IMG/VR virus record: IMGVR_UViG_3300046330_000071
Span: 1-27,942 of that record
Strand: one strand, 5' to 3'
DNA: 27,942 bases
Source of the DNA: a virus
Shown: piece after piece, positions 468 through 12,228 of the stretch
Position numbering within the stretch: position 1 is the stretch's first letter
Layout: the number at the start of each line of letters is the position of its first letter
Position numbers and translations under genes: made by a program
Notes under the pieces: generated by a model
The model's database searches: none
Told to the model about the DNA's origin: nothing
The model's input: the letters and a program-made list of their open reading frames with translations, nothing else

Positions 468-1010
468 ATGCACGACTATCTGAACGAACATCTCACCCTA
501 GAAATCTCACCGACCGAGCGCGTAGCCGTTTACATCGAACAAGACTATTTCCCCGTGGAAGATTTTGTAGGCGATGAGCTTGGAATCTTCACCTTGCACA
601 AAGACCGTTCACTCTCGAACATCGAACGCGGTGAACATTCACCGGCGTTATACGAACTACTCAACCGCGTAAACCGTGACCAAGAGGAATCGGCAATCGG
701 GAAATACCTATCACTTCATAACCTGCACTATAAGTTCGTTACCCTTCGCGGTTACAGCCAGTCCGATTGGGCAGACGTTGTGATTTATGCAGACGACCCT
801 GCAATCCTGGACTCAGACGAATCTTTGAAATCTTGGTTTCGCGGTGACGTATTCATGCTATGCCACGAGCAACTAATAACCTTTACAAGTTCCGACTCAG
901 ACCGAGTAATCGAACAATGGGAAACCCTAGACTCAATCGGCGCGGTTATTCTCGACACGCCCGAGGATGTAATAGATTTTGCAAAAGTAGACTTTGGCAT
1001 TACGCTATAA
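468..1010 (+). CDS. Conserved-type hypothetical phage protein (180 aa)
   Basis: ATG 468 to TAA 1008-1010, 180 residues, acidic, with no signal peptide or membrane segment. It starts three bases after the previous stop and is the largest gene of this early block. No catalytic motif is recognisable. Its composition (many Asp and Glu, scattered Trp and Tyr) resembles other small cytoplasmic early proteins in this window. Function unknown. Confidence 0.75.
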   Translation: MHDYLNEHLTLEISPTERVAVYIEQDYFPVEDFVGDELGIFTLHKDRSLSNIERGEHSPALYELLNRVNRDQEESAIGKYLSLHNLHYKFVTLRGYSQSDWADVVIYADDPAILDSDESLKSWFRGDVFMLCHEQLITFTSSDSDRVIEQWETLDSIGAVILDTPEDVIDFAKVDFGITL

Positions 1011-3482: not shown

Positions 3483-3878
3483 ATGAAAATCCCAGAGAAC
3501 TACCTAAAAAAAGTAATAAAGACTGATTCATGTTGGCTATGGAACGGACATATAAACAATAGTGGATATGGAAGATTCAACGCCAAGGATATGCCAGACA
3601 GATATGTTCATAGAGCTATGTTCTATTGGGCTAATGGCTATCTACCTGCAAGACCAAACGTTGTTGGACATAGTTGCGATGTTAGAAGCTGCGTAAATCC
3701 AGGGCATCTATCGGAACAGACTCAGCAAGAAAACGTTAGACAGTATTCACAACGTATCACGAGTTGCCCTAGTGGCCACGAATATGATATAAATAATACA
3801 TACATTAGGAAAGGTGGCTCTCGCAAGTGTCGAGAGTGCAATCGCCTAAGTGAACAAAGGAGATTATCATCGGGTTAG
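3483..3878 (+). CDS. Free-standing HNH homing endonuclease with C-terminal zinc finger
   Basis: 131 residues. An HNH_3-type domain spans about residues 15-88: CWLWNG near 17, VHRAMFYWANG near 42, then the core with H63, C65, C70, N72 and H75 (GHSCDVRSCVNPGHL) and QENVRQ near 82. Residues 95-119 form a second metal site, C95-x3-H99-x16-C116-x2-C119, probably a DNA-binding zinc finger. The residue before H63 is Gly where most relatives have Asp. The enzyme would nick or cut a specific site and promote spread of its own gene. It interrupts a run of closely spaced genes, has its own leaderless promoter and ends two bases before the next gene. AT-rich codon use differs from its neighbours, suggesting recent arrival. 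Confidence 0.9.
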   Translation: MKIPENYLKKVIKTDSCWLWNGHINNSGYGRFNAKDMPDRYVHRAMFYWANGYLPARPNVVGHSCDVRSCVNPGHLSEQTQQENVRQYSQRITSCPSGHEYDINNTYIRKGGSRKCRECNRLSEQRRLSSG

Positions 3879-5055: not shown

Positions 5056-5547
5056 ATGGCAGACAAGAAAGATATTGACGCGGTAAAAGCTGCAATCAAG
5101 ACAGCCCGCGCGACCGAGAAGAACGCTATCAGCAACGCAAAGCGTAAACTTGCAGACCTGGTAGACGAGATGGTTTCTCACGAGCACGCGAATGTAGTAG
5201 ATGCAATAAGACGTGCGCTAGTGTTGCAGATGTCATCACGTAAGATTGGCGAGGCGTATGGTTCATCAGACCCACACACAATCAAGCGACTAATCAACGA
5301 GGCTGTAGCCGGAGTTACCAGTAACGATGGCGGAGTTCACCCAGAGTGGAAACTCACTCGCAACATGGACGGCACGTTCACCATCACGGCCTTCGGCCTG
5401 GGTGATGCCAAGTTGAGTGGCTCAGGCGTGTTCTCTATTGACGAGGATGGCGAGAACTTCTCGCTAGTGGACGGCGATGCTTTTATCGCGGTGCAGCTTT
5501 ACAAACTAGGACAAAAAGATATCGTATTGGAGGAAGCACGTGGCTAA
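5056..5547 (+). CDS. HTH-containing hypothetical protein (163 aa)
   Basis: ATG 5056 to TAG-type end at 5547. The N-terminal 45 residues are a basic helix; residues about 53-82 (ALVLQMSSRKIGEAYG, then SDPHTIKRLINEA) look like a helix-turn-helix, with the recognition helix at HTIKRLI. The C-terminal half is beta-rich with regular Gly turns (GTFTITAFGLGDAKLSGSG). It probably binds DNA and could be an early regulator; the target is unknown. It overlaps the GTG start of the next gene by eight bases. Confidence 0.75.
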   Translation: MADKKDIDAVKAAIKTARATEKNAISNAKRKLADLVDEMVSHEHANVVDAIRRALVLQMSSRKIGEAYGSSDPHTIKRLINEAVAGVTSNDGGVHPEWKLTRNMDGTFTITAFGLGDAKLSGSGVFSIDEDGENFSLVDGDAFIAVQLYKLGQKDIVLEEARG

Positions 5548-7389: not shown

Positions 7390-7561
7390 TGAGACACCAA
7401 TCTACAATCAGATGCAGAAGCACTATGCGATGATGAGAGAGACTATTCGGATAGAACAGCGTATTGAACTCGTAAAGCAACTAAAGGCAATCAAGAAGCC
7501 AGTCAAGCAAGTTCAGGATTTGATTAAGGAGTATGAGAATGCCGAGATTAAAAACACCTAA
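7382..7561 (+). CDS. Small basic helical protein (59 aa)
   Basis: The preferred start is ATG 7382; the frame is open upstream but overlaps the Cys-rich gene. The product starts MTNETPIYNQMQKHYAMM and continues as one long charged helix (RIEQRIELVKQLKAIKKP), probably a coiled coil. It overlaps the preceding gene by eight bases and the following gene by about 20. Function unknown. Confidence 0.6.
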   Translation: MTNETPIYNQMQKHYAMMRETIRIEQRIELVKQLKAIKKPVKQVQDLIKEYENAEIKNT

Positions 7562-7904
7562 GCCACCATGCTCTGTAAATGACTGCAAGAACCAGAGCTG
7601 GCGACTTTATGAGTACTGCCGAATGCACCAAGCCAGGGTAATGAGAACTGGCACAGTGGATGGTATCGCTAGACTTCGCGCAATCAACAAAGAAGCGAAG
7701 CAAGAGCGGGCTAAGTTCTGTAAGGAAGAAGGATGCCAAGATAAGGTAGTCCAACGCTTCCGTTGCGAGTGGCACTATGACGACTTGATTGAGCGGATGC
7801 GGATACGCAACCAGCAGAACTATGAACTAATGCAAGAGTACGAAGACATCGACTACGATGACTTCTGGGAATGGGTAAAGAAGGAGTTGAAGTTAGATGC
7901 CTGA
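7539..7904 (+). CDS. Protein with two tandem C-C-C-H zinc-finger motifs (121 aa)
   Basis: ATG 7539 is chosen because AAGGAG at 7526-7531 lies seven bases upstream; an ATG at 7533 is too close to that site. Two copies of a similar motif are visible: CSVNDC followed by YCRMH (about residues 11-30) and CKEEGC followed by RCEWH (about 61-79). Each has the pattern C-x4-C-x9-12-C-x2-H, consistent with an internal duplication of a zinc finger. The C-terminus is a very acidic helix ending in a basic tail. Nucleic-acid binding is likely; the role is unknown. Confidence 0.75.
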   Translation: MPRLKTPKPPCSVNDCKNQSWRLYEYCRMHQARVMRTGTVDGIARLRAINKEAKQERAKFCKEEGCQDKVVQRFRCEWHYDDLIERMRIRNQQNYELMQEYEDIDYDDFWEWVKKELKLDA

Positions 7905-8757: not shown

Positions 8758-9276
8758 ATGAGCGAATACCAGTGGGAGCAAGCGGATAAGAATAATCCGT
8801 GGGGTAAGAAGAGAGCCAGGGGAAGTCACTGCTCTAAGGGGCATGAGTTCACCGAGGAGAATACTTTTATTCGCCCACTTGATAACGCCCGCGTGTGTCG
8901 ACAGTGCCGTAAAGAATATGCCAAGATGAAGTATCAGGAAAAGAAGATACAGAACAACGGCGTGGCACGAACTAAGAAAGAAAAGATTCAGGTATTTGAA
9001 CTATCTGAATCAGTTCCACTACTTGACAAAGCAATCCCATTCTGGGATAATCTACAACAGGGGTTACGAGAAACAGACGTAGCCTGCACTGATGACCCAA
9101 GAGCTTGGGTTGATTACTCAACTAAGATGTCGTGGCAAGAAGCCGAAGAGATGTGCCATATGTGCCCACTCATAAAGGCCTGTTATGACTTCGCGGTTGC
9201 GCAAGAAGTAAACGCTGGTATCTGGGGCGGTATTCACTTTGATGAGGAAGAGGGTGGCTTGTTTGACATTGACTGA
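8758..9276 (+). CDS. WhiB-family regulator with an N-terminal zinc finger
   Basis: 172 residues. The C-terminal half is a WhiB domain: the four cluster cysteines are C110, C133, C136 and C142 (CHMCPLIKAC at 133-142), followed by the GIWGG turn at 154-158. WhiB proteins bind a 4Fe-4S cluster and usually act with the primary sigma factor; phage versions can silence or redirect host genes. The N-terminal half has a separate metal site, C25-x3-H29-x17-C47-x2-C50, followed by a basic helix (KEYAKMKYQEKK). That module is very like the C-terminal finger of the HNH enzyme at 3483. WhiB proteins normally lack such an N-terminal finger, so this is an unusual fusion. The basic tail usually found after GIWGG is replaced by an acidic one. 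The family points to an actinobacterial host. Confidence 0.9.
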   Translation: MSEYQWEQADKNNPWGKKRARGSHCSKGHEFTEENTFIRPLDNARVCRQCRKEYAKMKYQEKKIQNNGVARTKKEKIQVFELSESVPLLDKAIPFWDNLQQGLRETDVACTDDPRAWVDYSTKMSWQEAEEMCHMCPLIKACYDFAVAQEVNAGIWGGIHFDEEEGGLFDID

Positions 9277-9964
9277 TGCACAGGTAAAAGAGATGACTGT
9301 TGGTTTATTCCTTCAGGAATCAGAACGAGACAAGCAGCACAAGGTTGGAGCATCACAGATATCTGACCCTTGTACTAGGCATCTGGCTCACGCGCTTGTG
9401 CGTACAGAACAAGAAGTACAAAAGTACTGGATGGGAGGCAAGATTGGTACAGCTATTCACGGATTTATTGAGCGTGCTATTGCCGATAGCGATAATGTTC
9501 TTTTCGACGGCGCTCTTGTCGAACAAAAAATCGGACTTGGTATTCTTGACGGGTATGGTTCTATATCTAGCAAGCCTGACTTGGTTCTGGTACGTAGCAA
9601 CCACCTAATCGACTGGAAGACCACATCACGCACCAAGATTAAAAAGCTGCAGAACTTTGTGGCGGGATTAAAGCATGACTCAGCATCAGAGTATACGCTT
9701 CGCAAGTATGTTGGCCAAGCGCAATTGTATGCTTGGGGATTAAACCAAGGAGGCATCAAGATTGATAAAGTTACTTTGGTATTTATTAATCGTGATGGTA
9801 CTTATGACAATGACATCTGGACTTTCAGTGTGGACTACGATTCACAGTTTGCACTAGAGTTGTGGGCGAGGCTAGAAGCGCTTTGGTCTGAGCTGCAAGA
9901 CGGGGCTCACCCAGAATCGTATGCGCCACACCCTGATTGCTACAAATGCTCTACGGGTATTTAA
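9263..9964 (+). CDS. Cas4/RecB-like PD-(D/E)XK exonuclease
   Basis: The TTG at 9263 is chosen because GAGGAAGAGGG lies just upstream and the product begins close to the conserved part; ATG 9242 or ATG 9293 are alternatives. The protein is about 233 residues. Nuclease motifs: GTAIHGFIE (62-70), KPDLVL (104-109), DWKT (117-120) and the RecB-type motif GQAQLYAWGL (151-160). Cysteines C37, C226 and C229 are in the places where Cas4-type enzymes hold an iron-sulphur cluster, but the usual fourth cysteine is absent because the protein ends six residues after C226. It would resect DNA ends to give single strands for recombination. It precedes the Sak4-like ATPase and the ssDNA-binding protein. Confidence 0.88.
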   Translation: MTLTDAQVKEMTVGLFLQESERDKQHKVGASQISDPCTRHLAHALVRTEQEVQKYWMGGKIGTAIHGFIERAIADSDNVLFDGALVEQKIGLGILDGYGSISSKPDLVLVRSNHLIDWKTTSRTKIKKLQNFVAGLKHDSASEYTLRKYVGQAQLYAWGLNQGGIKIDKVTLVFINRDGTYDNDIWTFSVDYDSQFALELWARLEALWSELQDGAHPESYAPHPDCYKCSTGI

Positions 9965-11731: not shown

Positions 11732-11803
11732 TGCCCCCTAGCTCAATGGCAGAGCAGGAAGCTGTTAACTTCAAGGTTGCTGGTTCGAGTCCAGCGGGGG
11801 CAG
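11732..11803 (+). tRNA. tRNA-Asn (anticodon GTT)
   Basis: A full cloverleaf can be drawn: acceptor TGCCCCC with GGGGGCA (7 bp), D stem GCTC/GAGC, anticodon loop CTGTTAA (11762-11768) with anticodon GTT, T-arm GCTGG-TTCGAGT-CCAGC, discriminator G. The anticodon stem has four pairs plus one G-A mismatch. CCA is not encoded. A 5' U and discriminator G agree with bacterial tRNA-Asn. It would help decode Asn codons during infection. Confidence 0.93.
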
Positions 11804-11807
11804 CAAA

Positions 11808-11890
11808 CAGTAACAACGGTCAGTTAGCCTAGCGTAAACTAACCCCCGCCTGTACTTTCATGTCTGGTGCTAGGATGTTAGTTGTTACTG
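11808..11890 (+). repeat. Perfect 10-bp inverted repeat enclosing an 83-base structured segment
   Basis: CAGTAACAAC (11808-11817) and GTTGTTACTG (11881-11890) are exact reverse complements. A nested 6-bp stem, CCTAGC (11828-11833) with GCTAGG (11869-11874), gives a long hairpin-like RNA; GTTAG (11823) with CTAAC (11839) is an alternative inner hairpin. It lies between tRNA-Asn and tRNA-Thr and has no T-loop. A structured RNA or processing element is inferred. Confidence 0.5.
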
Positions 11891-11912
11891 GGTAGGTTCT
11901 GCAGGACCTGCC
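11891..11912 (+). other. Tight hairpin between structured segment and tRNA-Thr
   Basis: Bases 11891-11912 form a near-perfect palindrome (GGTAGGTTCT with GGACCTGCC) with up to nine pairs, including two or three G-T wobbles, and a minimal loop. It follows the 10-bp inverted repeat directly and ends five bases before tRNA-Thr. No poly-T follows, so it is not a simple terminator; a 5'-leader or processing structure is possible. Confidence 0.4.
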
Positions 11913-11917
11913 AATTT

Positions 11918-11993
11918 GCCTCAATAGCTCAGTTGGTAGAGCGCCATACTTGTAATATGGATGTCGCGGGTTCAATTCCTGCTTGGGGCTCCA
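11918..11993 (+). tRNA. tRNA-Thr (anticodon TGT), CCA encoded
   Basis: Acceptor GCCTCAA pairs with TTGGGGC (one T-G wobble). The D-arm AGCTCAGTTGGTAGAGC is canonical; the anticodon stem CCATA/TATGG closes the loop CTTGTAA (11949-11955) with anticodon TGT. T-arm GCGGG-TTCAATT-CCTGC; discriminator T, then an encoded CCA (11991-11993). It is the only tRNA of the three with an encoded CCA. Confidence 0.95.
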
Positions 11994-12039
11994 ACAGGCA
12001 GAGAAACTGTCTCGGAGGCATCTGAGATAAGTCAAACCT

Positions 12040-12120
12040 GGAACTATAGTACAATGGCAGTACGCAGAGGTCTGAATGCAGGACATAATCTGAAATCTTG
12101 GTTCAAATCCAAGTAGTTCA
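12040..12120 (+). tRNA. tRNA-like gene with an 18-base anticodon loop (possible Gln-CTG; may be defective)
   Basis: Acceptor GAACTA (12041-12046) pairs with TAGTTC (12114-12119); the outermost G-A does not pair. D stem GTAC/GTAC (12049-12063) and T-arm CTTGG-TTCAAAT-CCAAG (12097-12113) are canonical. Between them there are 33 bases, about ten too many for a normal class I tRNA. The best anticodon stem is CAGA (12065-12068) with TCTG (12089-12092), which leaves a normal 4-base variable loop but a loop of about 18-20 bases. The loop begins GTCTGAA, which would give anticodon CTG with U33 and A37, followed by 11 extra bases. It may be inactive, an intron-like insertion or a mimic. Isotype uncertain. 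Confidence 0.5.
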
Positions 12121-12125
12121 TTTAA

Positions 12126-12196
12126 GGGTTCTAAGTGTTACGGTAGCACAACGGTCTCCAACACCGTTAGCGAAGGTTCGACTCCTTCAGAATCTG
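12126..12196 (+). tRNA. tRNA-Trp (anticodon CCA)
   Basis: Acceptor GGGTTCT pairs with AGAATCT (two G-T wobbles), discriminator G. D stem GTGT/GCAC; anticodon stem ACGGT/ACCGT closing loop CTCCAAC (12156-12162) with anticodon CCA and U33; T-arm GAAGG-TTCGACT-CCTTC. CCA end is not encoded. Last RNA gene of the island, 32 bases before the primase gene. Confidence 0.92.
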
Positions 12197-12228
12197 CGGA
12201 GAGTAAATAATCAATCAAAGGAGGATAT

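Follow-up and report, generated by a model that had tools for sequence, protein, structure and literature searches.

An actinophage WhiB-like regulator joined at its front to an HNH-type finger

WhiB-type regulators are normally built around an iron-sulphur cluster. Many of them carry no clear DNA-binding motif, which leaves open how most of them choose their promoters. An open reading frame at positions 8758 to 9276 (plus strand) of IMG/VR virus record IMGVR_UViG_3300046330_000071 raises this question in a particular form: what does a finger of the kind that accompanies HNH endonucleases do in front of a WhiB domain? The source virus is an actinophage. Its record is linear and probably a fragment, and the 27,942 bases that it comprises are the whole stretch of DNA analysed here (the window). 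Tail genes lie on the minus strand of the window and a replication and recombination module on the plus strand.

The predicted protein has 172 amino acids and, as the original prediction described, combines a Cys3His finger with a WhiB domain. The finger (residues 25-50, positions 8830 to 8907) has the ligands C25, H29, C47 and C50 in the spacing C25-x3-H29-x17-C47-x2-C50, and is recognised by its sequence pattern, by its invariance among relatives and in the structural model. Behind it comes a basic helix and linker, RKEYAKMKYQEKKIQNNGVARTKKE (residues 51-75, positions 8908 to 8982). The WhiB domain (residues 109-163, positions 9082 to 9246) holds the cysteines C110, C133, C136 and C142 and a GIWGG turn with W156, and matches PF02467 at 2.2e-10, with 41.4 bits against a curated cut-off of 23.6. 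A short acidic C-terminal end (positions 9247 to 9273) is found where a basic or AT-hook tail is usual. All four finger ligands are invariant among 17 aligned fusions, and the WhiB cysteines are so in 45 of 45 fusions, as is the G[IV]WGG beta-turn with W156.

An hmmscan of the fusion protein returned, over residues 17-75, two families of HNH endonucleases, PHROG 1492 (6.5e-12) and PHROG 826 (1.7e-10). Since these matches are significant, the likeness is more than chance, and the special kinship with HNH fingers that had been proposed is borne out: as judged from sequence, this finger and those that accompany HNH enzymes are truly related. The Pfam search of the same protein returned WhiB alone, with no HNH (beta-beta-alpha metal) catalytic domain. 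The combination of WhiB and an HNH-type finger can be regarded as a secure finding, a real and conserved architecture. It is apparently undescribed so far, as no description of a finger-WhiB fusion was found in the open-subset literature of PubMed Central.

The window also encodes an HNH endonuclease (positions 3483 to 3878, plus strand; HNH_3 1.1e-8, PHROG 826 2.4e-37) with a finger of the same type at its C-terminal end (positions 3765 to 3839). The spacing of this finger, C95-x3-H99-x16-C116-x2-C119, is the one originally reported. The N-T-[FY]-I-R stretch does occur at the same place in both fingers, but it lies inside the finger, between C-x3-H and C-x2-C, and not after it, as the original wording might be taken to mean. 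The further suggestion that an endonuclease module had been domesticated holds broadly, in the sense of an HNH-type finger without its nuclease; the phage's own HNH enzyme is nevertheless an improbable donor, because its finger is dissimilar (when 50 were ranked by similarity, a sample which the search seed had biased, it came third from last), and because HNH_3 genes occur in only two of 17 fusion records. Other features seen in the window are two weak matches, one at 7533-7904 to HNH endonuclease families (PHROG 5351, 3.1e-5) and one at 1420-1710 to an ocr-like family of anti-restriction proteins (PHROG 2568, 1.5e-4), and four clustered tRNA genes (Asn, Thr, Gln, Trp) at 11732-12197.

The whole fusion is encoded by 59 IMG/VR contigs. 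It is absent from the records of the phage collection, where nothing reaches a coverage of 80% of the query; the matches obtained there concern the finger part and fall mostly on genes annotated as HNH endonuclease. Because the first distribution searches used finger seeds, the search was repeated with the WhiB half only. Fusions accounted for 43 of the 80 loci recovered in this way, two loci counted as finger-free in this set (L191 and L216) being fusions truncated by the contig end, and the remaining loci form a sister group of finger-free WhiB genes. Fusion and finger-free genes share one slot, in which the order is SNF2-type helicase ... WhiB, exonuclease, Sak4 and primase. In the window this exonuclease is a PD-(D/E)XK (Cas4-like) enzyme at 9267 to 9964 (plus strand, start approximate; PF12705 8.6e-5, PHROG 1674 8.3e-27), a downstream neighbour conserved by synteny. 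Tandem WhiB genes were noted at this locus in the finger-free L195, L199, L203, L209 and their relatives, the second often having a basic or GRP-containing tail. The common position between the SNF2-type helicase and the exonuclease series makes the fusion and finger-free WhiBs orthologues by position, and since finger-free orthologues occupy the same slot, the finger is no general trait of WhiB proteins in phages. A single origin of the fusion is compatible with the WhiB-part tree (AU p 0.415), a weak test with 83 columns. Exactly one WhiB is encoded in 15 of 17 fusion records and two in just two of the 17, against a tandem pair in seven of eight finger-free records; this pattern, a correlation across related phages only, would agree with a division of labour.

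No part of the fusion protein is as well conserved as the finger. Among 18 fusions, mean pairwise identity reaches 80% in the finger (residues 17-63), compared with 50% in the WhiB part (residues 105-160) and 33% in the linker. In the WhiB-seeded set the finger, with a mean identity of 81%, exceeds even the CxxC-GWGG core, the most conserved part of WhiB (69%). Synonymous codons at identical residues agree in 47% of cases in the finger and 43% in the WhiB part of the 18 fusions. A higher identity of the finger combined with a similar codon agreement points to constraint at the protein level and not to recent exchange of fingers. In one pair of loci, L008 and L009, the WhiB half is identical at 55 of 56 residues and the finger half at 36 of 47, and DNA identity rises from about 60-80% to 88-95% within the linker, a step which reads as recombination between the finger and WhiB modules.

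AlphaFold2 gave a first model with a pLDDT of 65 and a second, with 89 rows, of 74. The finger is modelled, with pLDDT values of 77-90, as short strands followed by a helix at residues 48-65. Comparison of its fold with the PDB gave no clear match to a solved structure, and a profile search returned nothing beyond uS14, with E values no better than 0.12. The modelled WhiB part matches WhiB1 and WhiB3 (VIA Z about 6). Sigma binding by these two proteins requires adjacent aromatics (F17/F18 in WhiB1) together with a beta-turn tryptophan (W60 of WhiB1) (PMC10245118). The equivalent of the latter is W156, present in 45 of 45 fusions, and the first contact aromatic is retained as W, Y or F in 44 of the 45; the second is not conserved, its position being taken by V, A, I, T, G or a gap. 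Because this second aromatic is replaced, and because no W3-like N-terminal tryptophan was seen on reading the sequence, sigma docking is no more than putative for the fusion subfamily. WhiB7 binds DNA by a C-terminal AT-hook and WhiB3 by an arginine-rich motif aided by a basic tail, and the C-terminal tail of WhiB1 has basic residues, as has that of WhiB3 (PMC10245118). The acidic C-terminal end of the fusion protein contains no AT-hook (RGRP), and the net charge after GWGG is -6 in the 8758-9276 protein; of 32 distinct tails of fusions, 31 have a net charge of zero or below. The acidic tail and the basic helix behind the finger together suggest that the finger has taken over the contact with DNA.

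The best explanation, in which we place moderate confidence, is an actinophage WhiB-like regulator that docks on sigma and whose front-joined HNH-type finger contacts DNA instead of a basic tail. The WhiB part would bind a [4Fe-4S] cluster and use GIWGG to dock on the host's primary sigma factor at region 4, while the finger and the basic helix would touch promoter DNA near -35. The finger would stand in for the missing basic DNA-binding tail, and RNA polymerase would be steered to phage or host promoters. Cluster, sigma docking and finger-DNA contact are the parts of this explanation that we infer; the finger could instead bind RNA or protein.

A role in protein contact is the alternative that survives best, and we consider it rather unlikely. 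Here the finger would be a structural module, or one for contact with RNA polymerase, with a WhiA-like host partner or with a second WhiB, and specificity would come from sigma and the partners. Streptomyces WhiB, which binds no DNA alone and acts with WhiA (PMC10245118), offers a precedent; a near-invariant finger would also suit a conserved protein partner, and no associated DNA site was provable from the element search presented below. The relatives of the finger, however, sit on DNA-cutting enzymes, and the helix behind it is basic, both of which favour contact with DNA.

Less probable again is that the fusion is a dominant-negative interferer with host WhiBs, like the WhiB of phage TM4, with a finger that acts only as a DNA tether. 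TM4 WhiB is cited as an inhibitor of host WhiB2 (Rybniker 2010, cited in PMC10202952 and PMC8612146), and the acidic tail and the missing sigma-contact aromatic would agree with such a function. Yet conservation is stronger in the finger than in the WhiB half, which would be needless for a mere tether, and the gene sits in the replication module.

A third alternative concerns a promoter element of 16 bp, GTTAY-N6-GTTAY (consensus GTTAYCAAATTGTTAY), which emerged from motif discovery in the genomes of fusion phages. After removal of near-duplicates, 43 elements were counted in 13 fusion genomes, against 3.2 in shuffles. A -35 box lies exactly 5 nt off on the other strand at 17 of them (0 in shuffles) and 9 nt off on the same strand at six (0.05 in shuffles), and the element is at chance level in six finger-free genomes. 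A blind scan of all viral contigs yielded 44 stretches with the 11-bp spacing and zero with a 13-bp spacing. Twelve of the 44 element records encode the fusion, two come from new phages with a two-fingered WhiB, and some of the others evidently represent pieces of phages of the fusion type. Such regularities would be expected if the finger-WhiB of fusion phages read this element at set distances from -35 boxes, but several observations make this improbable. The element is also present in records that encode a finger-free WhiB (G028, G044 and G060) and in G027, whose WhiB is joined to an HTH domain, and fusion and finger-free phages differ by many genes. Moreover, GTTAYCAAATTGTTAY agrees with two published sites, the MtrA consensus of Streptomyces (GTnACC-n5-GTnAcn) and the box of GlnR (GTnAC-n6-GTnAC) (PMC5650626, PMC13189361, PMC10704036). 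Because of the MtrA/GlnR match and the finger-free element records, the element was dropped as first choice for the site of the finger. From its sequence it is most likely a box of the host's MtrA/GlnR type that phage promoters use, with the finger-WhiB as a weaker candidate reader. It seems equally improbable that the finger makes WhiB a site-specific, sigma-docked activator of the phage's own regulon, reading 11-bp-spaced GTTAY beside -35.

The window itself holds one copy of the element (1870-1885), upstream of the reading frame at 2029; any -35 that follows the element, nine bases on, is degenerate at best. In fusion phages (L247-L264, L283-L300) the elements are sometimes arrayed about 60-70 bp apart. 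A phage HTH_17 (BldC/Xis-like) protein was considered as a reader of the element and rejected, as no fusion-phage record searched has an HTH_17 match; one was found only in G027 among the other element-bearing records, below cut-off, and only in G018 among the finger-free records, over cut-off. An HTH-like protein of unassigned family (window 5056-5547), present in nine of nine fusion genomes and, at 26-32% identity, in six of six finger-free ones, is a candidate further regulator, though the gene-content screen for such proteins did not single it out. An acidic-residue-rich protein without family match (window 468-1010) has homologues in many element-holding contigs; none were found in the six finger-free genomes. 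Finally, homing HNH elements are known to insert into phage genes (PMC11855218), but a functionless leftover of such an invasion of whiB is very hard to reconcile with invariant ligands in a finger that divergent phages keep better than any other part of the protein, and we give this reading almost no weight.

The finger-WhiB fusion can be set beside similar joins in other records. G034 and G047 carry WhiBs with two N-terminal fingers (L346/L347), and L346 matches HNH PHROG 826 at 3e-8. In L064 a WhiB carries two fingers at its C-terminus, of which one is clearly of HNH type (8.8e-13). WhiBs of the Beephvirinae type are present in 29 Streptomyces phage records; all six that were aligned have a C-terminal CQRGH...GGRCxxC motif, and for each of the six the annotated neighbourhood shows a Cas4-type exonuclease gene downstream of WhiB. 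In G027, a single reading frame (L367:8788-9744, minus strand) contains WhiB and an HTH_17-like domain, the HTH match falling below the Pfam cut-off. These joins indicate that modules have been attached to WhiB more than once and at either end. A second WhiB in one fusion phage (L032:2755-3399) has a possible C-terminal HTH, with AsnC/WhiA-type matches below cut-off. If, improbably, the finger did read the GTTAY element as part of a sigma-docked activator, the actinophage WhiB would be a general sigma adaptor taking different DNA readers, be it an HNH finger at either end or an HTH. Because the finger occurs in only some of the orthologues of one slot, the family allows a test of whether WhiB can act as an adaptor to sigma whose DNA reader is exchangeable; it also presents an accessory finger of nucleases in a regulator.

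Among known systems, mycobacteriophage TM4 WhiB is likewise a phage-encoded WhiB regulator; compared by its description, it differs in that the sources consulted mention no finger in it. The Beephvirinae WhiBs (Zeigle gp65, FlowerPower gp63; PHROG 1333) resemble the fusion in combining WhiB with a CxxxH/CxxC motif upstream of a Cas4-type exonuclease. Unlike that of the fusion, their finger is C-terminal and shorter, and it has no HNH PHROG match, so that its kinship is suggested by the motif alone. With WhiB1, WhiB3, WhiB7 and Streptomyces WhiB the fusion shares the four-cysteine pattern, the G[IV]WGG turn, the fold and PF02467; it differs from them in its N-terminal HNH-type finger, and from known Wbl proteins in an acidic end without AT-hook and in the replaced second sigma-contact aromatic. 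Lastly, the finger itself is like that of the actinophage HNH endonucleases of PHROG 826 and PHROG 1492, with C-x3-H ... C-x2-C and NT[FY]. In those enzymes the finger is C-terminal, whereas in the fusion it is N-terminal, joined to WhiB and free of an HNH domain.
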